This document shows positions 45,766-60,077 of a stretch of DNA of 64,000 bases, one piece after another (position 1 is the first letter of the stretch; every line of letters begins with the position of its first letter). The stretch is from Vulcanimicrobiota bacterium. GTDB lineage: Bacteria; Vulcanimicrobiota; Vulcanimicrobiia; Vulcanimicrobiales; Vulcanimicrobiaceae. A program made the translations under genes and the position numbers. The stretch lies in the NCBI GenBank assembly GCA_027452165.1, contig DAIDGX010000003.1, forward strand, positions 1 through 64,000. Direction: 5' to 3'. The notes beneath the pieces are model-generated. The model was not told the origin of the DNA and did not search any database. It worked only from the letters and a program-made list of their open reading frames with translations.

Positions 45766-46278
45766 CTACGCGTCGAACTCTCGCGAGCGTCCTTGCGAGC
45801 GCGCGAGCTCGACCATCTCGCGCATGCGCGGATGCGTACCCGGGATCGTCGCGACCCACGGCTCGAAGCGCGGCACGGGCTCACCGACGCGAAAAAGGAT
45901 GTACCAGACGCTTAAATCGCCCACATAGGTAAAGCGGCGCTTGAACTCGCGCACCCGCGCCTCATAGCTGTCGCCCGCGCGCAGAAAACGTGCAAACCCA
46001 CCGAACTCGCGGTCGGCCTGCAGCAGCGCAGCGGCATTGTGGATCGTCGCACGAACCTTCCGCGGCGCGCGTAACGTCCCCGGCGTCGCAAGCACGCGAT
46101 CCACATCGACGTCATCGAACGCCGCCACGAGTTGTGGATCGAATCCTGCGAAGGCCGCGCGATACGCGTCCCACGGCACCGCGATCTGCTTCCACGAGAC
46201 GCCGGCCTGAAAGACGGCACGAGCGATCACCTCGAGATAGTCGGCGAGCGCCTGCGGCTCGATGACCTCGGGGATCAC
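45766..46278 (-). CDS. DNA-3-methyladenine glycosylase I-like protein lacking the usual Glu and zinc ligands
   Basis: 170 aa from GTG 46278 (GTGA overlap with the TonB receptor gene). The Tag family core is visible: FQAGVSWKQIAVPWDAYRAAF, GFDPQLVAAFDDVDVDRVL, and RKVRATIHNAAALL. E. coli Tag has Glu38 just before FQAG and a Cys/His zinc site; here the residues before FQAG are ARAV and no zinc ligands are seen, so glycosylase activity is doubtful. It is the last gene after RR, HK and TonB receptor. Confidence 0.7.
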   Translation of the reverse strand: MIPEVIEPQALADYLEVIARAVFQAGVSWKQIAVPWDAYRAAFAGFDPQLVAAFDDVDVDRVLATPGTLRAPRKVRATIHNAAALLQADREFGGFARFLRAGDSYEARVREFKRRFTYVGDLSVWYILFRVGEPVPRFEPWVATIPGTHPRMREMVELARSQGRSREFDA

Positions 46279-49200
46279 GAGCGCGGCGGCTGCGGGCGCA
46301 CGATGTAGATGCCGAACGCCTGCGTGTAGTTGAGCCCCGGGGGTAGCACGCCGTCCCATCCCTTGCCAACGATCGCGCCCGCACTCGCCGAAGCAACCCG
46401 TCCGCACAAGAGGAGCGCCGGGATGACCGATGGATCGCCGGGTTCGAGTTGATACCATGTGCCGCTCTTGGCCGCGTGCGGTGTAATCGTCCAGAGCGCG
46501 GGTGTCGTGCCGCTCGAAAAATAGGCTCGCAGTTCACCGATCGCTTCGGTCGCCGTATTGCGCAAATCCGTCGTACAGCTCGGCGCGGTCGTCCGGATCT
46601 CGAACGGATCGCTCGGAGGCGTCGCCGGCAGTGCGTACACGCGGAAGCTCTCCTGTCCCGCTTGGGGCTGACGCATCTCGATGTACATACCGACCGACGG
46701 CATGAAGACGATCGGACGCGAGAACGGTCCGCCCGGCGCTTGATAGAGATGACGCGATCCAACTTCGCTGGCCGTCGCGACGTGCAGCGGCAAACAGCCT
46801 ACGAAGATGCGAAACGCGCCGCCGCGCGCGGCATTGGGCTGCGCGCTCGTTGCGGATGTACCGGAGAGCAATGTCGAAGCAAAGACCGGCGCACCCGACG
46901 GCACGCCGAATTTCGGCGCGATCGAAAGCGCGTAGGTGGTGCCTAGCCCGTGGTACGTCACCGTAGCGCTCGCAAACGATGCTGCGGGCATCGTGGCTGG
47001 ATAACCGGCCGCGGTCTTCGCCGCTTCCACGCGAGCGACATATGCCTTCAACTCTCGTGCCAGCGTGCTCGCGTCGCCGGATGCATCCGCCGGACACAAC
47101 ACCGATCCCGATTGCACGGCAAAAGGCTCGCGTGGCGGCGTCTGCGGCAGCGGCGTGATGGCACGCCGGAATTCTCCGGGACCGCGCGCGTCTCCCGGAC
47201 CGCCGTGTCCGCCCGGGCCCATGAACGGTCCGCGCGGACCGCGCATCGCGAGCGGCGATGCCGCAGCGCTCCCGTTTGCGACGCCGCGTCCGAAACGTGC
47301 CGTGTAGGTGACAGCATAGCTGCGCGGTTGTAGCGGGCGCGCTAGGGTGGGGAGCGGGATGCCGTTCTGCGTCGTCAACGGCACGGCGTTCTGAGGGCTG
47401 GTAAAGATCCCCGCGTACACGTTCGTCAGATTGTTGGCAGCCAGCGTCAGCGTGCCATGCGTTAACTGCGCGCTCACGGCCGCGTCGAATTGCGTATAGG
47501 CGGGCAGGTTGTTCCAATTGTTCTTGGCCGTGTATTGAGCGTCGGCCAGCCACTCGAGCGCCGAACGCGGCGCCTTGTAATCGAGGACCACGCCCCCGCG
47601 CTGCAACGGCACGTTCGGCAACTGCTCGCCCGCGATCGTTAGTGAATAGGGGTTGTCGATGCGCGGGTCGTTCGAGACGAGCTTCGTCACGTTGACGTTC
47701 CAAAACGGCTGCAGCACCAAACGCCCGAACGTAAGATACCCCGTGAGCGAGCCGCCCTCGTACACGTGCTGCACGCCACCGATCGGCGTCGTGAAATACA
47801 ACTGTGCCGGAGAGAACGGCTTGGATGAATCGCATCCCGCGCTCGAAGCATAGGCGGAGGCGACCGCTGCGAGGTAGGCAGGCGAGAGGACGCCCTGGGC
47901 GGCCAAAACCGTTCCGTTCACCTGCACCGGCGACACCACACCGTTTTGCACTTGGCGATAGATCTGCAGCGAGAGCGATCCGCCGCGAAGTGCGCGCGTA
48001 TAGCCCACGCGCTCGGAGATCGACGAGCTTGGGCCGGGTTCATCGCCTGGTGCGCTTCCGTACGCGACGTTCGCGTTGCAATCAAACTGCAGCGATTGCG
48101 GTTCGGTCAGGGTGGTCGCACGGGTCGGCCCTGCAGCGGCGCCCCCGAGCGCATACGACGCCGAATAGGTGTCGCGCGTCGTCGGGCGCCATACCGCGCC
48201 GACGCTCTCGAGCGCACTCGCGCGCGCATTGGTTGAACGACTTATCCCCACCGATTCATCGAGCGTTAGCTTGTCGCTCGAATGTATCGTGTCGGTTACC
48301 TGCAGCGCCGAATAGGTGGACGTCTGCGCCGCGTTATAATAGGGAATCGCCGCCGGCACGAGGGGTGAGGTCGTTTGATCACTCCACGATCCATAGGCTT
48401 GGACGGAGACCGTGTGACGCAGGTGGGCAGGGAGCGTTGCGTTCAACGTGAAGCCGTGATTGCGCGAGAGCGAGGTAAAGCCAATCGGTTGCGGCACGCC
48501 GGCAACGTAACGATTTTGTTGGTTGTTGACCATGTCAAAGCTGCTCGAATAGACCGAAGCCGCAACGGTCGTCTCGCCCAGCAGCGCGTCGTCGCTTAGC
48601 GAATACAGTTGCACGCTGCCTTGATTCGTGTTGCCTGGTCCATATCCACATGGCAGGGCCTGCGACTCGCGCAAGCATACGATCTCCGTTTGCCGCGCCG
48701 AACTCAAGAACATCGCGGAGATCGCCTGCGAGTCGCTCACTTCATAGCGCAGTTTAGCCAGATTGCCGGTGATCGACGAGTCACCGTCGTGCACGTAATC
48801 GAGCCCACTTGCATCCGCGTAGCGCATGCCATCCACGAGGCTGGTGTTCAAACGATAGGTGCTTTGAAGAGCTACTCCTAGACGACCGAACGAGCCGCTC
48901 TCGGCAAAACCGTCGTTATATTTTCCATTGCTCCCGGTCGCGAGCGTCGCCTGCGACATCCACGTCAGCGTCGGCTCGAGCGTCGAGAAGTTTACGCCAC
49001 CGCCAAGGCCGCCGACTTGCGGGCCCGTGTGCACCGCCGCGCCGGAGAAGAGATCGGTCGCGAAAGCACCGAGATTTCCTGCGGTGCCCGGAGCGTTCAG
49101 GGGAATGCCGTCGAGTGTCAGCTGCGTTTGGCTGGCATCGTGGCCCTCGAGCGACACCGTCTGCGTCGCATCGCTATCGTCGCTGCTGGTCTGAACGGAG

Positions 49201-49664
49201 ACCCCAGAGAGTTTGTTCAACGCATCGGCTAGATCATTAGAAAGTTTCCGTTGTGCCGAATCGGGTCCAATCGACGACGTCGAGACGCTTGCTGACGAGT
49301 GGGCTACCACGGTTCCGATCACTTTGAGATTCTCGCTCGATGCGAGCTTGACGTCAACCGTCACCGCACTTGCGTTGATCACCTCGAACGGCGCAGAGGT
49401 GATGAACTGGTAGCCGCCCTTAGCGATGCGCGCGTGATAGATGCCGTCGGGAACGTCGGTAAAGAGTACCTGTCCGTTCGCGCCCGTTAGCTCGCTTGCG
49501 ATCACCGGCCCGTCGAGCACGACGCGTGCAAGGCCGATCGGCGTTTTACCGTCGACCTCGGTAACAACGATACGAATCGAACCCGAATCACTCTGAGCGA
49601 AACCGCCGATGGGCACGAGAGCAAGCAACAGACCGGCACATGCCGCGAGCACGCGAGGCATCAT
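46275..49664 (-). CDS. TonB-dependent receptor with duplicated C-terminal soluble extension
   Basis: 1129 aa. Signal peptide 1-23; carboxypeptidase-regulatory-like domain about 28-110 (IRIVVTEVDGKTPIGLARVV, FTDVPDGIYHARI); plug about 115-240 (RKLSNDLADALNKLSGVSVQ, LDGIPLNAPGTAGNL); barrel to about residue 793, closing SYAVTYTARFG. A further 336 residues follow. First comes a Gly/Pro-rich linker with RGPFMGPGGHGGPGD. Then come two related halves, about 847-1015 and 1020-1129, each with PF-(x) start, an ARELKAYVAR- or IGELRAYFSS-type helix and a pair of Cys (857/957; 1030/1087). A domain after the barrel is unusual and would be outside or periplasmic only if the chain crosses the barrel end. 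Ligand unknown. A two-component pair lies upstream on the same strand. Confidence 0.85.
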   Translation of the reverse strand: MMPRVLAACAGLLLALVPIGGFAQSDSGSIRIVVTEVDGKTPIGLARVVLDGPVIASELTGANGQVLFTDVPDGIYHARIAKGGYQFITSAPFEVINASAVTVDVKLASSENLKVIGTVVAHSSASVSTSSIGPDSAQRKLSNDLADALNKLSGVSVQTSSDDSDATQTVSLEGHDASQTQLTLDGIPLNAPGTAGNLGAFATDLFSGAAVHTGPQVGGLGGGVNFSTLEPTLTWMSQATLATGSNGKYNDGFAESGSFGRLGVALQSTYRLNTSLVDGMRYADASGLDYVHDGDSSITGNLAKLRYEVSDSQAISAMFLSSARQTEIVCLRESQALPCGYGPGNTNQGSVQLYSLSDDALLGETTVAASVYSSSFDMVNNQQNRYVAGVPQPIGFTSLSRNHGFTLNATLPAHLRHTVSVQAYGSWSDQTTSPLVPAAIPYYNAAQTSTYSALQVTDTIHSSDKLTLDESVGISRSTNARASALESVGAVWRPTTRDTYSASYALGGAAAGPTRATTLTEPQSLQFDCNANVAYGSAPGDEPGPSSSISERVGYTRALRGGSLSLQIYRQVQNGVVSPVQVNGTVLAAQGVLSPAYLAAVASAYASSAGCDSSKPFSPAQLYFTTPIGGVQHVYEGGSLTGYLTFGRLVLQPFWNVNVTKLVSNDPRIDNPYSLTIAGEQLPNVPLQRGGVVLDYKAPRSALEWLADAQYTAKNNWNNLPAYTQFDAAVSAQLTHGTLTLAANNLTNVYAGIFTSPQNAVPLTTQNGIPLPTLARPLQPRSYAVTYTARFGRGVANGSAAASPLAMRGPRGPFMGPGGHGGPGDARGPGEFRRAITPLPQTPPREPFAVQSGSVLCPADASGDASTLARELKAYVARVEAAKTAAGYPATMPAASFASATVTYHGLGTTYALSIAPKFGVPSGAPVFASTLLSGTSATSAQPNAARGGAFRIFVGCLPLHVATASEVGSRHLYQAPGGPFSRPIVFMPSVGMYIEMRQPQAGQESFRVYALPATPPSDPFEIRTTAPSCTTDLRNTATEAIGELRAYFSSGTTPALWTITPHAAKSGTWYQLEPGDPSVIPALLLCGRVASASAGAIVGKGWDGVLPPGLNYTQAFGIYIVRPQPPRS

Positions 49665-49723: not shown

Positions 49724-51178
49724 CTAAAACGTAATGAGGACGGTGGTACCGCGGTGGGGGGAACTCTCGATCGCGATCGTTCCGCCCGCGCGCTCCACCG
49801 CGCGCTTGGCGATCGCAAGACCGAGACCGCTGCCGGCGATCTCGCCCCGGCGATCTCCCCGGTAGAAGCGCTCGAATGCGTGGATGCGTTCCGATTCGGT
49901 CATACCCGGCCCCTCATCGATGATGGCGATCGTGGTATGCCCGTCAACACCTCGCGCCTGCAGGTGAATCGGTGAGTCGGGAGCGTATTTGAGCGCGTTT
50001 TCCACGGCATTCCATATCGCCTCACTCAATTCGGCACGATCACCGACGATCTGATCCACCCCTTCGACGCTGTAGTCGATCGCGCGCGACTCATCCAAGC
50101 GTTTCGCCGCTTCAACTTGCGTTCGCAGCAGGTCGCTCACGTCGATCGGTTCGCTGCGAGGCGGCGCCTCGCCGTCGAGGCGCGCCAGGCGCATCAAACG
50201 ATCGATGAGGCCGCGCATGTGCTCCTTCTCGATCGACATCGTACCGAGAATCTGCCGCGCGATGGTTGGTTCCTCGATCGCACCCCGCCGCAAAACGTCG
50301 ATATAGCCGCCGATCACGGTCAGGGGCGTGCGCAACTCGTGTCCGGCATCCGATACGAATTGACGCATCCGCTCCTCGGTCTCGCGGCGTTCGCCCATCG
50401 CCGAGGCCACGCGGGCCGCGGCATCGTTGTAGGCAGCCGTCAGCGTGCCGATCTCGTCTCCGCCCGGCGCAACGAAGCGCCGCTGCGTGAAGTCACCGTC
50501 CGCAAGCGCCCGCAACGAATCGGTCACGTCGGTAATCGGGTGCAACGCTTGACGTGCAAAGAGTCGTCCGACGAACCACGAGAGAAAGATCGCGACGACG
50601 GCGATCGTGAGGACGACGCGCCAATACGGCACGAGCGAGACGAGCAGCAGCGGAAGCGATGGAGCGAACGCGACAAAGCCGCCGTCAACCGCGGTCAGTT
50701 CGAGCGGTTCGGGGCGCGCGCGCATCGGACCATCGCGTACGATGAGCTGATACGCAAGGCCCCGTTTGTCGAGCGACGGTGGCCCCGGCATGCCGCGCAA
50801 TTCGATGGCATCGCCAAGCCGGACCGACGGCGGAATCATGTTCATGTGGCCGCGGATGACCGAGTCGAGCACCTTCGGGCGTAGCGTCTTGTCCCCGGCA
50901 AGATAGTTTCCTTGCCGATCGAAAACCGCGACGCGCAGGCCGATACCGCTCAGAGTATTGACGATTTCCGGTGCCGCTTGCCGAAGCGACATCCCCTCCA
51001 TCCGGTACTGTGCGGTGAGGAAGCGCGCCTCTTCATGCTTGGCGATAACGATGTCGCCGGTGAAGTTTGCCATCTCGAGCACGAGCGCTACGCCGGAGGC
51101 AAGGATCACGAGCACGATCGTGATCCCAAGCAGCGTGGCATAGAGCGCCGACAAGCGCGAGGCGAGCGAATGTTTCAT
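49724..51178 (-). CDS. Sensor histidine kinase (HAMP-HisKA-HATPase)
   Basis: 484 aa. TM1 at about 12-36, a periplasmic region of about 140 residues, TM2 about 175-205, HAMP (LHPITDVTDSLRALADGDFT), and the phosphoacceptor His280 in VSDAGHELRTPLTV. The ATP-binding part has NALKYAPDSPI, IIDEGPGM and GSGLGLAIAKRAVERAGG. Its stop is followed after 59 nt by the TonB receptor gene, and its ATG lies 3 nt after the response regulator. The signal is unknown; linkage suggests it controls or senses receptor substrate. Confidence 0.93.
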   Translation of the reverse strand: MKHSLASRLSALYATLLGITIVLVILASGVALVLEMANFTGDIVIAKHEEARFLTAQYRMEGMSLRQAAPEIVNTLSGIGLRVAVFDRQGNYLAGDKTLRPKVLDSVIRGHMNMIPPSVRLGDAIELRGMPGPPSLDKRGLAYQLIVRDGPMRARPEPLELTAVDGGFVAFAPSLPLLLVSLVPYWRVVLTIAVVAIFLSWFVGRLFARQALHPITDVTDSLRALADGDFTQRRFVAPGGDEIGTLTAAYNDAAARVASAMGERRETEERMRQFVSDAGHELRTPLTVIGGYIDVLRRGAIEEPTIARQILGTMSIEKEHMRGLIDRLMRLARLDGEAPPRSEPIDVSDLLRTQVEAAKRLDESRAIDYSVEGVDQIVGDRAELSEAIWNAVENALKYAPDSPIHLQARGVDGHTTIAIIDEGPGMTESERIHAFERFYRGDRRGEIAGSGLGLAIAKRAVERAGGTIAIESSPHRGTTVLITF

Positions 51179-51181
51179 CGA

Positions 51182-51874
51182 TTAGGGCTGCTGTGACAGT
51201 CCGTAGCCGACCCCACGCACGGTGCGAATGAACGACCCGCGCTCGCCCGGCCGGTCGATCTTTGCCCGCAGATATGAGATGTACGTTTCCACGATATTCG
51301 GGCCGCCCTCGAAGTCGTGTCCCCACACGATTTCAAGCAAGTGGTCTTTGCTAAAGACGCGTCGCGGCTCGCGCATCAGCACCGCCAACAATTCGAACTC
51401 GCGTTGCGTCAACTCGATGACGTCTTTCCCGCGAAAGAGCTCGTGGGTCTGCGGGTTCATCGAGACGTCGCGCCAGCGCAACACATGCTCTTCGATCAGT
51501 TGTGGGCGGCGCAGCTTCGCCTGCAAGCGCGCGATCAGTTCTTCGAAGACGAACGGCTTGACCAAGTAGTCGTCGGCCCCGGCGCTCAAACTGCGCACTT
51601 TATCGCCGGTGTCGCCCTTCGCCGTTAACATGAGAATCGGCGCTTGCGAAATCTCTCGCAGCTTCGGTAAGAGCGTGATCCCGTCGATCCGCGGCATCAT
51701 GATATCGAGTACGATCACCTCGGGGTCGAAGCGACGCACCAAGTCTAGCGCGGCGAATCCGTCGGCCGCCGTCTGAACGTCGAAGCCCTCGCGCGAGAGA
51801 CCGAGTTCGAGCATTTCGCGGACCATGCGGTCGTCGTCGATCACCGCCACGCGTGCATGAGGCATACTGAACAT
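51182..51874 (-). CDS. OmpR/PhoB-family response regulator
   Basis: 230 aa. Receiver domain with the acidic pocket IDDD at 12-15, phosphoacceptor Asp57 in VIVLDIMMPRIDG, Thr in LMLTAKGD and Lys in YLVKPF. The C-terminal winged helix has LTQREFELLAVLMREPRRVFS, VWGHDFEGGPNIVETYIS and TVRGVGYGL. The next gene downstream is its kinase. ATG 51865 is an alternative start. Confidence 0.95.
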   Translation of the reverse strand: MFSMPHARVAVIDDDRMVREMLELGLSREGFDVQTAADGFAALDLVRRFDPEVIVLDIMMPRIDGITLLPKLREISQAPILMLTAKGDTGDKVRSLSAGADDYLVKPFVFEELIARLQAKLRRPQLIEEHVLRWRDVSMNPQTHELFRGKDVIELTQREFELLAVLMREPRRVFSKDHLLEIVWGHDFEGGPNIVETYISYLRAKIDRPGERGSFIRTVRGVGYGLSQQP

Positions 51875-52492: not shown

Positions 52493-53485
52493 CTATGCGG
52501 AGGAAAGTTGAATTGCCGTGTGCGGGACGATGGTCGTCCGGCGGCTGAACATGCCGAGCATCGCATCGACCACATCGGGGTCCCACTGCGTGCCGCGCCC
52601 TTCTTCAAGAATCGTGAGCGCCTGGCGAGGCGGGATCGGCTTGCGATACGGTCGTTCGCTGATCATCGCGTGGAAGGCATCGGCCACCGCGACCACCCGC
52701 GATTCGAACGGAATATTCGTGCCGATCAACCCATCTGGGTAGCCGGCTCCATCGAACCGCTCGTGGTGCGCGCGCACGACGATCGCGCAGCGCTGCAGCG
52801 ACGGAACTTGGTTCAAGATGCGCGCACCGGCGGCCGCGTGGTCGCGCATGACGTCCCACTCGGCAGCATCGAGCGGACCGGGCTTCGAGAGCACCTCGTC
52901 CGGGGTCGAAATCTTTCCGATGTCGTGGAGCAGCGCGCAGAGGGCGATGAACTCGCTGCTCTCCGGCCCACATCCCATTGCGATCGCGAGGCGGCGCGCC
53001 CACTCGGCGGTCGCCTTTGAATGACAACAGGTGCCGTAATCCCGTTCCGCAAGCATCGCGAGCAGCGCCGCGACACCTTCGGCCGTTGGATGCGACGCCT
53101 GAGCGGCCTCGCCATCGTCGGCGCCGAGCGCCGAACGCTCGATCTCCTGCGCCAAAACATCAAGGAATGAGAGCAGACGGCGATGATCGACATCGTACGC
53201 GCCGGCGGCGAGCGTTACCGCGTGGGTTGCGGCATTCGACATATCGACGACCGCGGCGCGCCCAAGGCGTTGCACCTCGCGCTCGGCCCAGCCCGTGAGG
53301 CCAACGGGCTTCGCAAGCGTCAAGGAGAGGCAGAGGCGATCGAGGAGGACCTCAAGACTCTCCTCGACGTCCGGGTCGTTCGCCACTGCGGACAACGAGA
53401 GTCCTTGCACCGCGCTGCCCGCGAGTGCCGGGATCTCCTGTCCGAGTGCGGCCCCGAGGGCCGTAAGCGTGCGAACCGCGGACAT
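52493..53485 (-). CDS. HD-GYP domain protein (cyclic-di-GMP phosphodiesterase type)
   Basis: 330 aa. Residues about 1-150 are an uncharacterised helical region. The HD-GYP domain has HSKATAEWARRLAIAMG, LLHDIGKISTPDEVLSKPG, DVMRDHAAAGARIL, HHERFDGAGYPDGLIG and VVAVADAFHAMISERPYRK. The HHExxDGxGYP signature is complete, so it should hydrolyse cyclic-di-GMP or a related dinucleotide. A very small ORF precedes it by 8 nt, and a terminator follows it. Confidence 0.92.
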   Translation of the reverse strand: MSAVRTLTALGAALGQEIPALAGSAVQGLSLSAVANDPDVEESLEVLLDRLCLSLTLAKPVGLTGWAEREVQRLGRAAVVDMSNAATHAVTLAAGAYDVDHRRLLSFLDVLAQEIERSALGADDGEAAQASHPTAEGVAALLAMLAERDYGTCCHSKATAEWARRLAIAMGCGPESSEFIALCALLHDIGKISTPDEVLSKPGPLDAAEWDVMRDHAAAGARILNQVPSLQRCAIVVRAHHERFDGAGYPDGLIGTNIPFESRVVAVADAFHAMISERPYRKPIPPRQALTILEEGRGTQWDPDVVDAMLGMFSRRTTIVPHTAIQLSSA

Positions 53486-53493
53486 CGCTCTAC

Positions 53494-53571
53494 CTAACCT
53501 GCCGTCGGACCCGGGGTATCCGAGGTCAGAATGCCGATCGCGATGATCGTGATAATGGTTGCGGTAAGCAT
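53494..53571 (-). CDS. Small hydrophobic peptide ORF upstream of the HD-GYP gene
   Basis: 25 aa: MLTATIITIIAIGILTSD followed by TPGPTAG. It has a GGAGA site 7 nt before the ATG and ends 8 nt before the HD-GYP start, so it would be translated from the same mRNA. Half of the peptide is one hydrophobic segment of Ile/Thr/Ala. I do not recognise it; it may be a leader peptide, a membrane micropeptide or a signal peptide precursor. Confidence 0.45.
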   Translation of the reverse strand: MLTATIITIIAIGILTSDTPGPTAG

Positions 53572-53660
53572 GTGTCGTTCTCCGAAAGTGTTGTGGACTA
53601 CGACGACAACGTACCGCATTTCGTGGGCCGAAGGCCCTACTGAAATTTAAGTAGGGACGT
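53572..53660 (-). other. Gap between the LuxR gene end and the small ORF, with overlapping stems
   Basis: GGGCC (53625-53629) / GGCCC (53633-53637) and CCCTACT (53635-53641) / AGTAGGG (53650-53656) share the CCC at 53635-53637, so only one stem can form at a time. The second begins 4 nt past the LuxR gene stop. They may end the LuxR transcript; a promoter for the HD-GYP unit must lie in the remaining 50 nt but none is clear. Confidence 0.45.
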
Positions 53661-56303
53661 TTACTGGAGCCCCTCCAGATACCCTAACCGGCGCGCAACC
53701 GCAATCGCCTCCGCTCGCCCATGGCAGCCGAGCTTCTCCGTGAGATTCTGGATGTGCGTCTGTACGGTATAGACCGAACGCCCCATCTCTGCCGCGATCT
53801 CCTTCGGAGAGAGGCCGGAGGCGAGTTCCCGAACGATCCGCGCCTCAGACGGCGTCAACGTTACGACGGCAACGTGGTCCCGCTGCCGCTCGATCGACGA
53901 AACAACGTGGCTCACGTAGGCGACGTACCCACCGAAGCCTTGCTCGCGCAGGGTCGCGAGCATGCTCTCCAACTGTTCCAACGAGAATACCGGATTCTTG
54001 GCAGCGCGCAGCAACTCGTCGGCAACGCCTTTGAACGCTTGAGCGACAGGGTGGAGGTTCTCGGGGATGCGCTTGAGTATCCGCTGCGCCGAGGTGAGGC
54101 GCCCCGAAGCAATCTCGGCAAAGACGAGCAGCACGTTTGCGACGTTCGCGAAGAGTGCTTCGGCCGCACTCGTCTCCTGTGCCGCCGGAAATAGGTCCAG
54201 AGTTTTCTCCACAACGGCCGAGCTCTGCTTTGACATCCCATCCAACGCCAAGCAAAGCGCGTAGGCGGCACGATTCAACATTCGGTCCGAAACGTGGATT
54301 TGGCGATCGACAATGGCCCCGAACAGGCGATGTGCCTCCGCGTATCTTCCTGCCCACGCGTGCCGATGCGCTTGACTCGATGCAATATAATTCATGCGCT
54401 GGGCATCATTGAATCGAAGCTCGCCGATCTGTTTTTCGATCTGCGCGGCCCGCTCCCCGTTCCCCCTACGCGTCTCCAAGCTCAGCATCATGAACAGCGC
54501 GCCTTGCAATTCCACGTACTCTCCGGCTCGCGTCGCCGCGGCAGCCGCTTGTTGCGCGTACCACAAGCTCATCGCCACGTCGGCGTCGGCATAGAGCACC
54601 AGGAGCGATAGATTGAAGAACGCTTTTGCCACCACCGACCACAGGGCGTTTTCTTTGCCGATTTCCACCGCTTTGTCGAGTGCTTCACGAGCTCGCCGTG
54701 CATCGCCGAGTGCCATGTATACCGTGCCGGCACGAAACTCAAGGCGCGCCTGTGCATCCCGGCGTACGAGCTCGTGACGCCGTGCGATCACCTCGGTCAT
54801 GACCGCCTTTGCCGCATTCAGATTTCCGACGCGGGTATGACACACGGCCAGCAGCGCCTGGGCCTCGATACGGTCCGCATCGGCCACCTCGGGATCGTCC
54901 GCGATTTCGAGGAGCAGCGGTTCGGGCCGGCCACTGTGCATTGTCTCAGCCACCGCAAGTTGGAGGGTCACCTCCGTTCTGCATCGCTTCGGAAGTCCCG
55001 CATGCAGCGCTTCGTACACGGCCGCCTGACCGGAACGAAATTCGCCGCGTGTTATGTCGATGAGGCCACGCAGCGCTTTGACCACCGGCACGTTCTGGAA
55101 TTGCCAAATGGCCGACGTGACGGCAAGGTGTACGTCGTCGGCGTGTCCACGCCCGATGAGGCCAACTCCGTCGCTCTCGAGGAGACGGCGGAGTTGTTCG
55201 GTCGCACCGTATTCCGCGTACAGGCGCAGTGCGGCTGGGAGTTGGCCGGAGTTCTCCATGACCACCCCGATGCGGATGGCACGCGCTTGCAGAACGTCTT
55301 CACCGCGCTTGCGTAATTGGTGCAGTACGAAATCGCGAAAAAGATCGTGAAGGCGATAGATACCACCCTTATCCGTCTCCTGAATGAACGCGACACGTTG
55401 TCGTAATTCTTCGATCGCGACGACGGCTCGCTCGAAGCCCGCAGCCACCAGAAGTTCTACATGTATTTCGGGCAGCAGCGCCGCGGTTTCGATCAACTCG
55501 CGCTCGGCCTCGTTGAGGCCGCTATACACTTGCTCGGCCAGATACCGATAGATCATCTCGCGCGTCATCGTCGAGATGTTACGCAGATCGACCGAGCGCG
55601 TGGAGGAGCGCAGCGCGAAACTCATCGCCGTCGCCCAACCATCGGTCAAGTTGAGCAGTTCGTAGAGCTCCTCGTCACGAACGCCGAGACGAAACGTCTT
55701 CGCGGCGTCGCGTGCCTCTTCGAACGAAAATTTGAGGTCGTGCTCGTCGATCGCAAGGTCGCTCTCACCGTACGCAAGCCACGTTCCGATCGGCAAGCCG
55801 AGCGCGGTTCGTGAGGCGATGATCCACTGCACGCGCCCTTTTGTGCGCTCGATCAACGAGGCGAGAAACCGCGTTACCTCACGGTCGTCTTGCGCTACGT
55901 GTAAATCGTCGATGGCGATGATGCCGCGATGCCCTTTGAGGTGCGCGTGCATCCACATCGCAAGGTCCGCACCCGGCTGGTCCGATCCGGCATTTCTTTC
56001 GTACGCGCCCGCAAGCGTTGCCCGTGCGTCCGGCGCGATCTCGATCAGGGCATCGGCGAAGCCACGTAGGAAGCCGAGCAGGCCGCCGTTATCGGGCAGC
56101 ACGTCGTACCGGACGCACGGTTCGGGGATCGAATCCAAGAATTGCCGCAGCGCGACCGACTTACCGTACCCTGCCGGAGCGATGACGAGCACGATACGCT
56201 GCATCGCCGCCGAGGCTAAACGCTCCAGCACGCGACGGCGCACGACCGGAACGAAGACTCCGCCGGTTTCAATGGTACCGTCGGGGCGAACGGGCCGAAT
56301 CAC
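53661..56303 (-). CDS. Large ATP-binding LuxR-family (MalT-type) transcriptional regulator
   Basis: 880 aa from GTG 56303. Walker A IAPAGYGKSVAL at 41-52, a Walker B-like GIIAIDDLHVA, then a winged-helix linker and a long helical TPR-like region (about 350-800). The last 65 residues are a LuxR DNA-binding domain: LTPSEARIVRELASGLSPKE then IAAEMGRSVYTVQTHIQNL. MalT-type proteins are STAND ATPases that oligomerise on binding an inducer. The gene follows the ABM-domain gene by 6 nt. Inducer unknown. Confidence 0.9.
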   Translation of the reverse strand: MIRPVRPDGTIETGGVFVPVVRRRVLERLASAAMQRIVLVIAPAGYGKSVALRQFLDSIPEPCVRYDVLPDNGGLLGFLRGFADALIEIAPDARATLAGAYERNAGSDQPGADLAMWMHAHLKGHRGIIAIDDLHVAQDDREVTRFLASLIERTKGRVQWIIASRTALGLPIGTWLAYGESDLAIDEHDLKFSFEEARDAAKTFRLGVRDEELYELLNLTDGWATAMSFALRSSTRSVDLRNISTMTREMIYRYLAEQVYSGLNEAERELIETAALLPEIHVELLVAAGFERAVVAIEELRQRVAFIQETDKGGIYRLHDLFRDFVLHQLRKRGEDVLQARAIRIGVVMENSGQLPAALRLYAEYGATEQLRRLLESDGVGLIGRGHADDVHLAVTSAIWQFQNVPVVKALRGLIDITRGEFRSGQAAVYEALHAGLPKRCRTEVTLQLAVAETMHSGRPEPLLLEIADDPEVADADRIEAQALLAVCHTRVGNLNAAKAVMTEVIARRHELVRRDAQARLEFRAGTVYMALGDARRAREALDKAVEIGKENALWSVVAKAFFNLSLLVLYADADVAMSLWYAQQAAAAATRAGEYVELQGALFMMLSLETRRGNGERAAQIEKQIGELRFNDAQRMNYIASSQAHRHAWAGRYAEAHRLFGAIVDRQIHVSDRMLNRAAYALCLALDGMSKQSSAVVEKTLDLFPAAQETSAAEALFANVANVLLVFAEIASGRLTSAQRILKRIPENLHPVAQAFKGVADELLRAAKNPVFSLEQLESMLATLREQGFGGYVAYVSHVVSSIERQRDHVAVVTLTPSEARIVRELASGLSPKEIAAEMGRSVYTVQTHIQNLTEKLGCHGRAEAIAVARRLGYLEGLQ

Positions 56304-56309
56304 CGAACG

Positions 56310-56642
56310 CTACACCGTCGTGTCGAGCGGCGGCTGATACTCCTCATCGCCTTCATAATACCCTAGCAAGAGCTCCTCGAGATACAGCATGCGCAGGTCG
56401 CGGTCCAGGCGCGCATAGTCCCAGGCGTTGGCGCTTCGGAACGCCTCCCAATCGGCCTTCGACTCCCACACATCGACCGCGATGTAGATGCCGCTCTCGT
56501 TCTTGCTGCGGAAGAGGCGCAGACGCCGGAACCCCGGGTGGCGGCGGAAGAGCGCGGCCCAGGGCCCGTCCGGCCCATATGCGTGCTCGAATGCCCGGAC
56601 CTGCGCCGCATGGACGCGATACCGGTACAGAACCTCGATCAT
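56310..56642 (-). CDS. ABM-domain (antibiotic biosynthesis monooxygenase-like) protein
   Basis: 110 aa from ATG 56642. The ferredoxin-like ABM pattern is RYRVHAAQVRAFEHAYGPDG, HPGFRRLRLFRSKNE, IYIAVDVWESKADWEAF. Small proteins of this kind act as oxygenases, haem-degrading enzymes or sensors. It lies between two regulators on the same strand, 55 nt after the BTAD gene and 6 nt before the LuxR gene. The position suggests a role in the signal they respond to. Function otherwise unknown. Confidence 0.7.
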   Translation of the reverse strand: MIEVLYRYRVHAAQVRAFEHAYGPDGPWAALFRRHPGFRRLRLFRSKNESGIYIAVDVWESKADWEAFRSANAWDYARLDRDLRMLYLEELLLGYYEGDEEYQPPLDTTV

Positions 56643-56697
56643 TCGCAGCGCACCATAGGCTTCGAACTTGGCCGCACGTGACGGCTCCCCCTCGCGA

Positions 56698-59490
56698 TCA
56701 TGCGCGCACCAGGCGCGCAAGGCCAAGCGACGGCTCGACGCCTAATTCACGCTGCAGCGCGTCGCGATAGCGACGGTAGAGCCGCAGCGCCTCCCCCCGG
56801 TCGCCCCGCTTCAGAAGCGCTCGCAGGCCAATCTCGCACGCGGACTCGTCGCACGGGTCGAGCGCAAGCGCAGCGTTCACGTATTCAAGCGCCTCCTCGA
56901 CGCGCGCTGCCGCAAGCGCGTCGTTAGCTAGCCTCACGAAGATTCTATTTTTCGCATCATCCAGGGCGCGACGGTATGGCGCGAACCACTCCCACGCTTC
57001 GCTCGCGGGCGCAGCACCGGCGACGGCCATCGACAATACCTCGTGCAACCGAGCCCGTTCCACTTCGCTCAATTCCAAGCGAACCCGCGCGCGTTGCGAC
57101 GCACGCTCGATATCCCAAAGATCGACATGTGCGTCGCGAGGTAGACGATACACGTCACCGTCACGCTCGATCGCGCCGGCGCGACCGAGATGCGAACGCA
57201 AGCGATGGAGTTGCACGCTGAGCGCGTTGCGAGCGTCGCCTTCATCGACATCGGGCCACAGGAGCGAGCACAATCGGGCGCGCGTCGTTCCTTCGCGGCG
57301 CGCGGCGATCGCGACCAGCAACTCGAACTCGCGACCGGACACGCGCACGGCGTTGCCCTCAACGGCCACCTGCTCACGCAACACCTCGAGCGCGATCGGC
57401 GGCGTGCGCCGCACGCGCCGTCGCTCCACCGCGGCAATAAACGACGAGAGCATCCCTGCGTGCGCACGCCCGTCGCGCAGTTCCGCGATCGCGGCCGCAA
57501 GCGCGCTTGAATCGCAGCCGCGTGCCGTCTCGGCCGCCGCGGCGAGCGCATCGTCACGTTGTTCGTCGTCACAGAGCCCGTGCGCCACGTACGCGAGCAC
57601 GAGCAACAGCGGCGTCTCGATCCGCCGCGCGAGCGCGACGGCGGAACGCGCCATCGCGCGCCGGCGTTCGTCGTCACCCTCCTGTTCCAGGCGCATCAGC
57701 GTGCCGAACAACACGAATCGCGGGAGATCCGTGCCAGCCGGCTCGTCCGCGCGTCCGTTCGCCGACGCGGTGAAATACCGCAAGCCGTCGATCCCTGCGG
57801 TGACGACGATGGCATCGAGTCCTTCGGCGAGGGTGCGCACATGCGCATCCTCACCGGCAAGCCACGCCCCGGCAACCCCTTCAGCGAGCGCCGCCGCCAG
57901 GAGATTCTGCAACTGCGAGGCTTGCGCAAACTCGATTGCCCGCTCCAAAAATTGCCGTTCCAGAGCACGCTCACCACGCGCCCGCGCCACGTCCGCACCG
58001 AGCGCGAGATAGAGACCCGACGCGGGAATGACCTGTCCATCGACGTGCGCGAGCGCAACGTGCAGATCGCGCTCCGCGGCATCGATCATTCCCGCACGCG
58101 CTCGCACCGCGCCACGCTGCGCCGTTAGACGCTCGCGCAAAAGCTGCGGCGGCTCGCGCTGTGCGTGCAACTCCGCCTCAAATGCATCGACTGCCGCGAG
58201 CGCCTCCCCGGTTCTCCCAGCCGCGAGCATCGCGCTGACGCGCATGGCAAAGACGTAATAGCGATCGACGATCGGAACGTCGGCGGGCAAGGTCCTCCAC
58301 ACGAGCTCCGCCTCGTCAAGCAGCATGTGCGCGTGACCGCACGATAGCCGCACGAGCACGCTCACGCCCCATAAGCGCGGGTATCGCTGCACCGTCGTTC
58401 GCCCGAGACGCGAGAGCACGCGAAGGTAGTCGTGCGGAATCGTGCGCAGGGCGAGCATGTCGCCCTGCGCGAGCGCTCGCGCGGCTTCGTGCATCTCGCC
58501 GCATTCAAGATAGAGCTCGGCCGCGCGCACGAAGGCCCCCGCGGCATCGCTTGCCCGCGCGAGCTCGCGCCGCATCACCGCGCCGCGCTCGGGCAAACGT
58601 TCGCGAACATGCCGTGCAATGATCGGATGCACGGTAAACGTATCGGAGGCCGCCCGCGCGACGAACGGCGAATGCCCCGCGTAGGCAACTAAATGGTCGA
58701 ACGCCGGCGTATCGGGAAAAGCCAGACGGATGTCGCGTTCGCTCGCATCCGGCAACGCCACGCAGACCGCGATCCCGCGCGCCACATCGGGATCGAGCGC
58801 CGAGAAGATCTCGTCGGCCAGGTATTCGCGTAACTCGTCGGCAAGGACGCCCACGGGGTCGGCAAGCAGGTCGGCGTGCCGGCCTTCCGCGGCCAGGCGT
58901 TTGAGCAACAGCGCGGCGATCGGCCAGCCCTGCGTCGCCTCGATCCCCGCCGCCGTCAAGGCGGCGTCGTTCGTCTCAGCCAGCAACGACGCAAGCTCAT
59001 CCTCGGAGAAGGCGAGATCGCGTGCGCGTAGCGAGCAAATCTCGTGGGGCGCCGCAAAGCGCGTCAACGTCACCGGCAAGGGTGTGCGACTCACGAGCAC
59101 GAGGCGCGTCGAGGGCGAGCGCGCCTTCAAGAAGCGCGCGAGCGCCGCAAGCGCGGCGTCGTTTCCTATAAGGGCATCGGCATTTTCGAAGACCGCCGCG
59201 CGCGGGCTCACATGCCACGACTCGAGGGCGTGCTCGACGCGCTCAGCGGTCGTCCGGCTCCCGTCATCCAGCTCAAGGGCGAGCTCCGGCACCAGGGCCC
59301 GCGCCATGCGCAGTTCGTCGAATCCCGGCGCGCAATCGCAGACGACGGCCAATGGCGCGTCGGCGAGAAACTGCCGAACGAGGGTCCTCTTGCCGTACCC
59401 GGCCGGGGCCGTCACCGCGATCAACAAGGGATCGACCCGGCGGAGCCGAGCTAGCGGAGCTTTCCGGATCAGGTCGCCGGCCGTACGCAT
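56698..59490 (-). CDS. Large ATPase regulator with C-terminal winged helix and BTAD domain
   Basis: 930 aa from ATG 59490. Walker A APAGYGKRTLVRQF at 28-41, sensor-type ATPase with LVLVSRTPLPVTL, then a long Ala-rich TPR-like middle (about 330-690). About 720-790 is an OmpR-type winged helix (NAVRVSGREFELLVAIAARRE, GDARNALSVQLHRLRSHLG) and the final 140 residues are a BTAD domain with PASEAWEWFAPYRRALDDAK, LALDPCDESACEIGLRALLK and LYRRYRDALQRELGVEPS. BTAD/SARP regulators usually have the DNA-binding part at the N-terminus; here it follows a MalT-like ATPase. Upstream lies a set of 11-bp-spaced repeats. Confidence 0.88.
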   Translation of the reverse strand: MRTAGDLIRKAPLARLRRVDPLLIAVTAPAGYGKRTLVRQFLADAPLAVVCDCAPGFDELRMARALVPELALELDDGSRTTAERVEHALESWHVSPRAAVFENADALIGNDAALAALARFLKARSPSTRLVLVSRTPLPVTLTRFAAPHEICSLRARDLAFSEDELASLLAETNDAALTAAGIEATQGWPIAALLLKRLAAEGRHADLLADPVGVLADELREYLADEIFSALDPDVARGIAVCVALPDASERDIRLAFPDTPAFDHLVAYAGHSPFVARAASDTFTVHPIIARHVRERLPERGAVMRRELARASDAAGAFVRAAELYLECGEMHEAARALAQGDMLALRTIPHDYLRVLSRLGRTTVQRYPRLWGVSVLVRLSCGHAHMLLDEAELVWRTLPADVPIVDRYYVFAMRVSAMLAAGRTGEALAAVDAFEAELHAQREPPQLLRERLTAQRGAVRARAGMIDAAERDLHVALAHVDGQVIPASGLYLALGADVARARGERALERQFLERAIEFAQASQLQNLLAAALAEGVAGAWLAGEDAHVRTLAEGLDAIVVTAGIDGLRYFTASANGRADEPAGTDLPRFVLFGTLMRLEQEGDDERRRAMARSAVALARRIETPLLLVLAYVAHGLCDDEQRDDALAAAAETARGCDSSALAAAIAELRDGRAHAGMLSSFIAAVERRRVRRTPPIALEVLREQVAVEGNAVRVSGREFELLVAIAARREGTTRARLCSLLWPDVDEGDARNALSVQLHRLRSHLGRAGAIERDGDVYRLPRDAHVDLWDIERASQRARVRLELSEVERARLHEVLSMAVAGAAPASEAWEWFAPYRRALDDAKNRIFVRLANDALAAARVEEALEYVNAALALDPCDESACEIGLRALLKRGDRGEALRLYRRYRDALQRELGVEPSLGLARLVRA

Positions 59491-59498
59491 AGGTAAAG

Positions 59499-59542
59499 TG
59501 TAAGCGATTTGTAATTTATATGTAAGTACCCCGTAATAGCAG
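59499..59542. promoter_or_regulatory. Four 11-bp-phased direct repeats in the BTAD/NarL intergenic region
   Basis: TGTAAGCGATT (59499), TGTAATTTATA (59510), TGTAAGTACCC (59521) and CGTAATAGCAG (59532): TGTAA at the head of three units and CGTAA at the fourth, with exactly 11 bp between starts. OmpR-type DNA-binding domains of SARP/BTAD regulators bind direct repeats spaced by one helical turn next to the promoter, which fits this place between two divergent regulators (59490 and 59598). Confidence 0.6.
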
Positions 59543-59597
59543 AGAAAGCAGGACGCTTTAGCGTATTTGTTGCCAGCCGAGCCACGGAAAGGCAACC

Positions 59598-60077
59598 ATG
59601 AGCGTCCTCCCACAGGCTTTTCTGCCTGCGGCCGTCTCAGTCGAAAGCGCTGACCCTACCGTCGTAACGGCGGTCACGCGACTCCTCGCCCTCGACCCGG
59701 GCATCTCGGTCGTAAGTACGGCCGCCACCATCGAGTCTATCCGCGTTGACGAGCACTTTCTCGAACAATTCCGCGACCGCACGGTTGGCGAGTTGCTCGA
59801 TGCGCTCAAACGCATGCCACGCACGGCGAGGGCCGCATCAAAGCGTCACTTGCAGCCGGTTCCAGGCAGCGCTCGAGAACTGCGATCCCTGTTGTCCGAT
59901 CGCGAATTTCAGGTCGTGCGACTCGTCGCTGAGGGTCTCTCGAACAAAGAGATCAGCCGGCGTCTCGAACTCTCGGACAAGACCGTCAAGAATCATATTT
60001 CGCACATCCTCGCAAAACTGAATCTGTCAGCTCGCACGCAAGTGGCGGTCCACGCGCTGCGCGCCGGCATCGTCTAA
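59598..60077 (+). CDS. NarL/LuxR-type DNA-binding regulator without a receiver domain
   Basis: 159 aa. Residues 98-159 are a LuxR-type helix-turn-helix: LSDREFQVVRLVAEGLSNKE, ISRRLELSDKTVKNHISHIL and AKLNLSARTQVAVHALRAG. The first 95 residues (PAAVSVESADPTVVTAVTRL, ESIRVDEHFLEQFRDRTVGE) do not contain the Asp, Lys and Thr of a receiver and are of unknown fold. It is divergent from the BTAD gene across the 11-bp repeats. The last 51 nt overlap the convergent gene at 60027. Confidence 0.85.
   Translation: MSVLPQAFLPAAVSVESADPTVVTAVTRLLALDPGISVVSTAATIESIRVDEHFLEQFRDRTVGELLDALKRMPRTARAASKRHLQPVPGSARELRSLLSDREFQVVRLVAEGLSNKEISRRLELSDKTVKNHISHILAKLNLSARTQVAVHALRAGIV

Follow-up and report, generated by a model that had tools for sequence, protein, structure and literature searches.

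A TonB-dependent receptor of a Vulcanimicrobiota bacterium carries a tandem, putatively periplasmic domain pair after its beta-barrel

The window (the whole stretch of DNA that was analysed, 64,000 nucleotides, positions 1 to 64,000 of contig DAIDGX010000003.1, assembly GCA_027452165.1) contains an open reading frame of 1129 amino acids on the reverse strand (46275-49664) that encodes a TonB-dependent receptor with a post-barrel extension, hereafter the tail. All features of the window described below lie on this strand. Immediately upstream, separated from the receptor gene by 59 bp, lies a sensor histidine kinase gene (49724-51178), which is itself preceded by a gene for an OmpR-type response regulator (51182-51874). 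Upstream of these two-component genes, positions 52493-59613 encode a protein with an HD domain as well as two large proteins of 880 and 971 aa that, as read from the sequence, are putative ATPase-type transcriptional regulators; several relatives (L062-L065, L068) keep the order of the genes for the HD-domain protein and the 880-aa protein. On the other side of the receptor, a methyladenine-glycosylase-like gene (PF03352, 45766-46277) has an apparent GTG start that overlaps the receptor stop codon (GTGA). A similar glycosylase-like gene is convergent with the receptor in relatives such as L063 and L064, so the local orientation differs. Gene calls in relatives are open frames picked by length and third-position GC, their genomes being assemblies of which many are incomplete; signal peptides were assigned, and loop lengths counted, by eye.

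The protein is a TonB-dependent receptor, as the first-pass annotation had proposed, by its plug, its 22-strand barrel and the presence of TonB in the genome, where seven TonB_C matches exceed the cut-off. Omp85 and VKOR are encoded there as well. A signal peptide (residues 1-24, MMPRVLAACAGLLLALVPIGGFAQ, 49593-49664) was read by eye. The Plug domain (PF07715, residues 124-216, 49017-49295) was matched in Pfam with an E-value of 6.9e-9 and 36.6 bits against a cut-off of 23.9, and no STN match to the receptor was found in Pfam up to an E-value of 1. A candidate TonB box lies in the LKVIGTVVAH region (residues 112-119, 49308-49331), assigned by position and resemblance only; in the alignment, a consensus LKxIGxVxV precedes the plug and is kept among relatives. 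Residues 30-107 (49344-49577) resemble a CarboxypepD_reg domain, a sub-threshold Pfam match (E = 1.2e-4, 22.8 bits against a curated cut-off of 32.3). A domain of this type is found N-terminally in Oar (PMC6434023), and the receptor might on that ground be grouped with the Oar-type receptors, its tail recruiting a protein for secretion. This is very improbable: the match is below the cut-off, nothing here points to an exported partner, and the chaperone-usher outer-membrane ushers PapC and FimD, which act in pilus assembly, form a different barrel family, with no Pfam match of the receptor to the usher barrel or usher C-terminal domain families.

The full-chain structure model contains 22 barrel strands (residues 236-792, 47289-48959, delimited by the model strands and Foldseek), a low-confidence linker (797-833) and two domains outside the barrel. 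A tail folded within the barrel was rejected on this model. Foldseek searches with the full model returned Cir, PirA, BtuB, FepA/PfeA and other TonB receptors, with E-values down to 2e-27. In TonB-dependent receptors the barrel usually ends at or near the C-terminus, although this does not strictly define the family. Here the chain continues beyond the strand ending in ARFG, as had been noticed from the sequence, and 336 residues follow position 793. That such an addition is unusual was borne out within the source genome, in which this receptor alone carries the domain; the other nine plug proteins have no such tail and end in barrel-like strands, as read from their C-termini. Moreover, three paralogues without a tail stop 3-16 residues past the strand-22 position, with the same motif. 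The BAM signal is described as located in the final strand (PMC10945584), and strand 22 (residues 782-792, 47289-47321, placed by the model and the paralogues) would therefore hold this presumed signal at an internal site. The strand (YAVTYTARFG...) has a hydrophobic alternation and the Phe/Val/Ile/Leu-Gly ending, but the internal Gly of the full consensus was not seen in it by eye.

Hand counts from the model show that the loops 1-2, 3-4 and so on to 21-22 are mostly of 11 to 40 residues, with two of 3-5, whereas the even-numbered turns are all of 3-6 residues. Because long loops are found only at odd-numbered, external positions and the even-numbered ones are short, the last of the 22 strands is predicted to run inward, which would place the tail in the periplasm; topology gives the side only, not the placement relative to the barrel. 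The cysteine pairs of the tail and the signal-peptide-like starts of separate copies of its domain fit a periplasmic location. The earlier idea of a surface domain is not supported by this topology, and a tail at the cell surface was rejected on the strand number and loop-length pattern. As to the accompanying idea of ligand capture, capture of an extracellular ligand is unlikely because the tail is periplasmic by this topology, while cargo or a partner may be bound on the periplasmic side.

The tail begins with a Gly/Pro-rich flexible linker (residues 793-841, 47142-47288; pLDDT below 50 at 797-833), which is followed by two compact halves delimited by profiles, model and alignment. Domain 1 (h1) spans residues 842-1012 (46629-47141) and contains Cys857 and Cys957; domain 2 (h2) spans residues 1013-1129 (46278-46628) and contains Cys1030 and Cys1087. 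This is the arrangement, and these are the cysteine positions, that the first-pass annotation had described, and its view that the halves are related was confirmed. When profiles of 35 sequences each were compared, half 1 (840-1012) and half 2 (1010-1129) gave an alignment of 114 columns at 24% identity, with a score of 128.6, a probability of 99.46 and E = 3.1e-22; in 200 controls in which the columns of half 2 had been shuffled, the score averaged 11.1 and never exceeded 22.0. Between the halves, the PF start, the LKAY/LRAY helix and the Cys pair each fall at aligned positions, within a common pattern PxxPPxxPFA...C...helix...strands...C...YxPxxGLY. Modelled alone from a 35-sequence alignment, the tail folded confidently (pLDDT 83.8, pTM 0.76), and both halves show the same order of elements: a single long helix is followed by two paired strands, then by additional short helices and strands, and last by another pair of strands. 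The tail consists of a tandem repeat of an alpha/beta domain that is about 110-140 aa long and has an invariant Cys pair in each copy. In a domain tree half 2 is separated from half 1 with support of 100/99, and the duplication therefore predates the divergence of the sampled families.

All eight cysteines past the signal peptide (330, 339, 529, 611 and the four of the tail) are invariant in 34/34 relatives, and the tail is kept in three families. Disulfides within the tail pairs are plausible, since VKOR is encoded in the genome. Identities to the two nearest relatives are 64/62% for the tail against 72/73% for the entire receptor; such faster divergence might be the case for a tolerated, lineage-specific decoration of no specific function. 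The retention of the tail in three families of the class, its invariant cysteines and its occurrence as separate secreted proteins all speak against this, and make it the least credible of the readings considered here. Beyond single His and Trp positions, near-invariant polar residues are few, which fits binding better than catalysis and makes an enzyme less likely.

No useful match to the tail was found in Pfam, NCBIfam or PDB sequences, and a Foldseek comparison of its fold with the PDB returned nothing significant. The domain family is thus so far undescribed in the databases searched. Across 35 tails there was likewise no OmpA, LysM, SPOR or other peptidoglycan-binding family, the best being SPOR at 0.097 in one member. 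This bears on the reading of the tail as an anchor that holds the receptor to peptidoglycan or to some other part of the envelope, like the C-terminal domain of OmpA, whose position past the last strand, on a flexible linker and on the periplasmic side, the tail shares. Secreted solo copies without an anchor would also make little sense under such an arrangement, and we regard anchoring as improbable.

A profile of the tail matched 96 of the 149 genomes of the phylum, mostly in receptor-length frames. The matching genomes are from the family, order or class of the source genome only, and none was listed among the sampled genomes outside the class. Two peptide patterns were also scanned against a collection of 84,980 species, a limited test of absence elsewhere, and yielded 24 loci with titles of Eremiobacterota/Eremiobacteria or only 'bacterium'. 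The extension occurs both fused and alone in related genomes: the domain forms a tandem tail in most cases and now and then a secreted protein of its own, encoded upstream of a related receptor. With a profile from which all solos had been left out, six short stand-alone frames matched in its half-1 part (8.3e-16 to 2.8e-4), the L167 solo being the one at 8.3e-16. Four of the six read cleanly (L167:4040-4567, L168:4459-4962, L169:1467-2078 and L170:2635-3210), are 167-203 aa long and have a signal-peptide-like start and a Cys pair. In L167 and L168 a tailed receptor gene follows the solo gene on the same strand after 20 and 28 bp, respectively; in L171 and L166 the upstream copy is broken, that of L171 being just before the receptor gene, and no receptor gene adjoins the solos of L169 and L170. 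The solos group with half 1 in the domain tree, but on long branches. The occurrence of the module in fused or separate form supports an autonomous exported domain.

In one subclade there is, judging from the sequences, apparently a single tail domain that groups with half 2. The apparent single-domain receptors are L080 and L081, relatives within the family (half-2 grouping 97/90 for the pair), with weaker matches in G005, G009, G016 and others. Together with the neighbouring loci L183-L188, this pair shows a seemingly single half-2-like tail domain and a long Gly/Pro-rich insert. Genome G129 (loci L168, L172, L190) contains 11 matches to a single-domain profile; the matches suggest that tailed receptors may have expanded in its genus.

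We favour, with moderate confidence, a tail that serves as a tethered periplasmic docking or hand-off module on a standard TonB receptor. The two tail domains would be held beneath the barrel mouth by the flexible Gly/Pro linker and would bind either the cargo being imported or a partner protein in the periplasm when the substrate emerges, and such binding would keep hand-off or sensing local to the receptor. To computed features, i.e. the receptor fold, the tail outside the barrel, its duplication, its conservation and the separate secreted copies, this reading adds a presumed periplasmic side, presumed disulfides and presumed docking. As the domain has no known relative, docking is argued from location and context only. 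The secreted solos with a Cys pair beside paralogous receptors are consistent with it; however, solo copies are few, diverged and long-branched, and two of the six are not beside a receptor gene.

The gene neighbourhood brings in trans-envelope signalling, in which the periplasmic tail would inform the sensor kinase encoded next to it whether the receptor is occupied, and so be the C-terminal equivalent of the signalling domains that FecA/FpvA-type receptors carry at the N-terminus. A homologue of the window's kinase is found directly upstream of the receptor at 19/19 family-f1 orthologue loci examined (L003-L020, L023), and in the roughly 5-7 kb examined on each side of the other nine plug genes of the source genome, no homologue of a kinase or regulator was detected. 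At the examined f2 and f3 orthologues a kinase homologue was not found directly upstream. Two-component genes are present in other arrangements near the tailed receptors of G042, G046, G052, G010, G016 and G021, and in two cases a BlaI-type repressor and BlaR1 (M56) replace the two-component pair directly upstream of the tailed receptor (L172:267-2056, L174:164-1836). No two-component neighbour was detected for several tailed orthologues and paralogues (L177, L178, L181, L067, L069-L072, L076), and the tail therefore needs none encoded beside it. Genetic linkage of tailed receptors with sensory systems is frequent, but not universal. Kinase adjacency as proof of signalling was rejected, several tailed receptors being without a kinase; moreover, adjacency may mean only transcriptional control of the receptor gene, and orthologues are non-independent observations. 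Signalling thus seems unlikely, if with a real minority chance. More doubtful still is the wider proposal of a new class of TonB-dependent transducer, in which tandem C-terminal periplasmic domains would act on a cognate two-component kinase (or BlaR1) in place of an N-terminal STN domain acting on an anti-sigma factor. Of these readings, docking or hand-off is ranked ahead of signalling to the kinase, with anchoring in third place.

Accounts of the diversity of receptors in this superfamily usually go by the accessory domains at the N-terminus, and a class-wide, conserved tandem C-terminal module represents a second place to attach function to the barrel. Such a module also requires that the signal for barrel assembly can act from an internal position. 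A domain family without a match in the databases searched here gains a clear cellular address, and the secreted solos beside paralogous receptors make the role of the module testable with purified protein.

In plug and 22-strand barrel the receptor is like Cir, BtuB, PirA and FepA/PfeA. The chains that match it best in structure have about 544-771 residues, however, and here another 336 residues follow the last strand. The best Foldseek match of the tail itself is the type IV pilin 4d40, at a non-significant score (E = 0.61, probability 0.85, 51 columns) and with no sequence match, other pilins being lower; the solo proteins begin, as judged by eye, with ordinary signals of the Sec type and not with a prepilin (class III) signal. 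In OmpA, too, a flexible linker after the barrel leads to a C-terminal domain in the periplasm (PMC5071624), but the barrel is of 8 strands and the domain binds peptidoglycan, and a match to the OmpA family is absent from the tail. Within the parts of the literature consulted, no description of a receptor with a C-terminal periplasmic extension was found, and the portion consulted of a 2024 receptor review mentions none. A survey of 34,893 receptors, based on N-terminal domains alone, divided them into classes by five N-terminal architectures (PMC6434023). FecA/FpvA (STN type) and Oar (CarboxypepD_reg type) bear an extra periplasmic domain on the receptor, as is proposed here, but their accessory domains are N-terminal, whereas the present receptor has them in tandem at the C-terminus, and the family to which they belong is unmatched.
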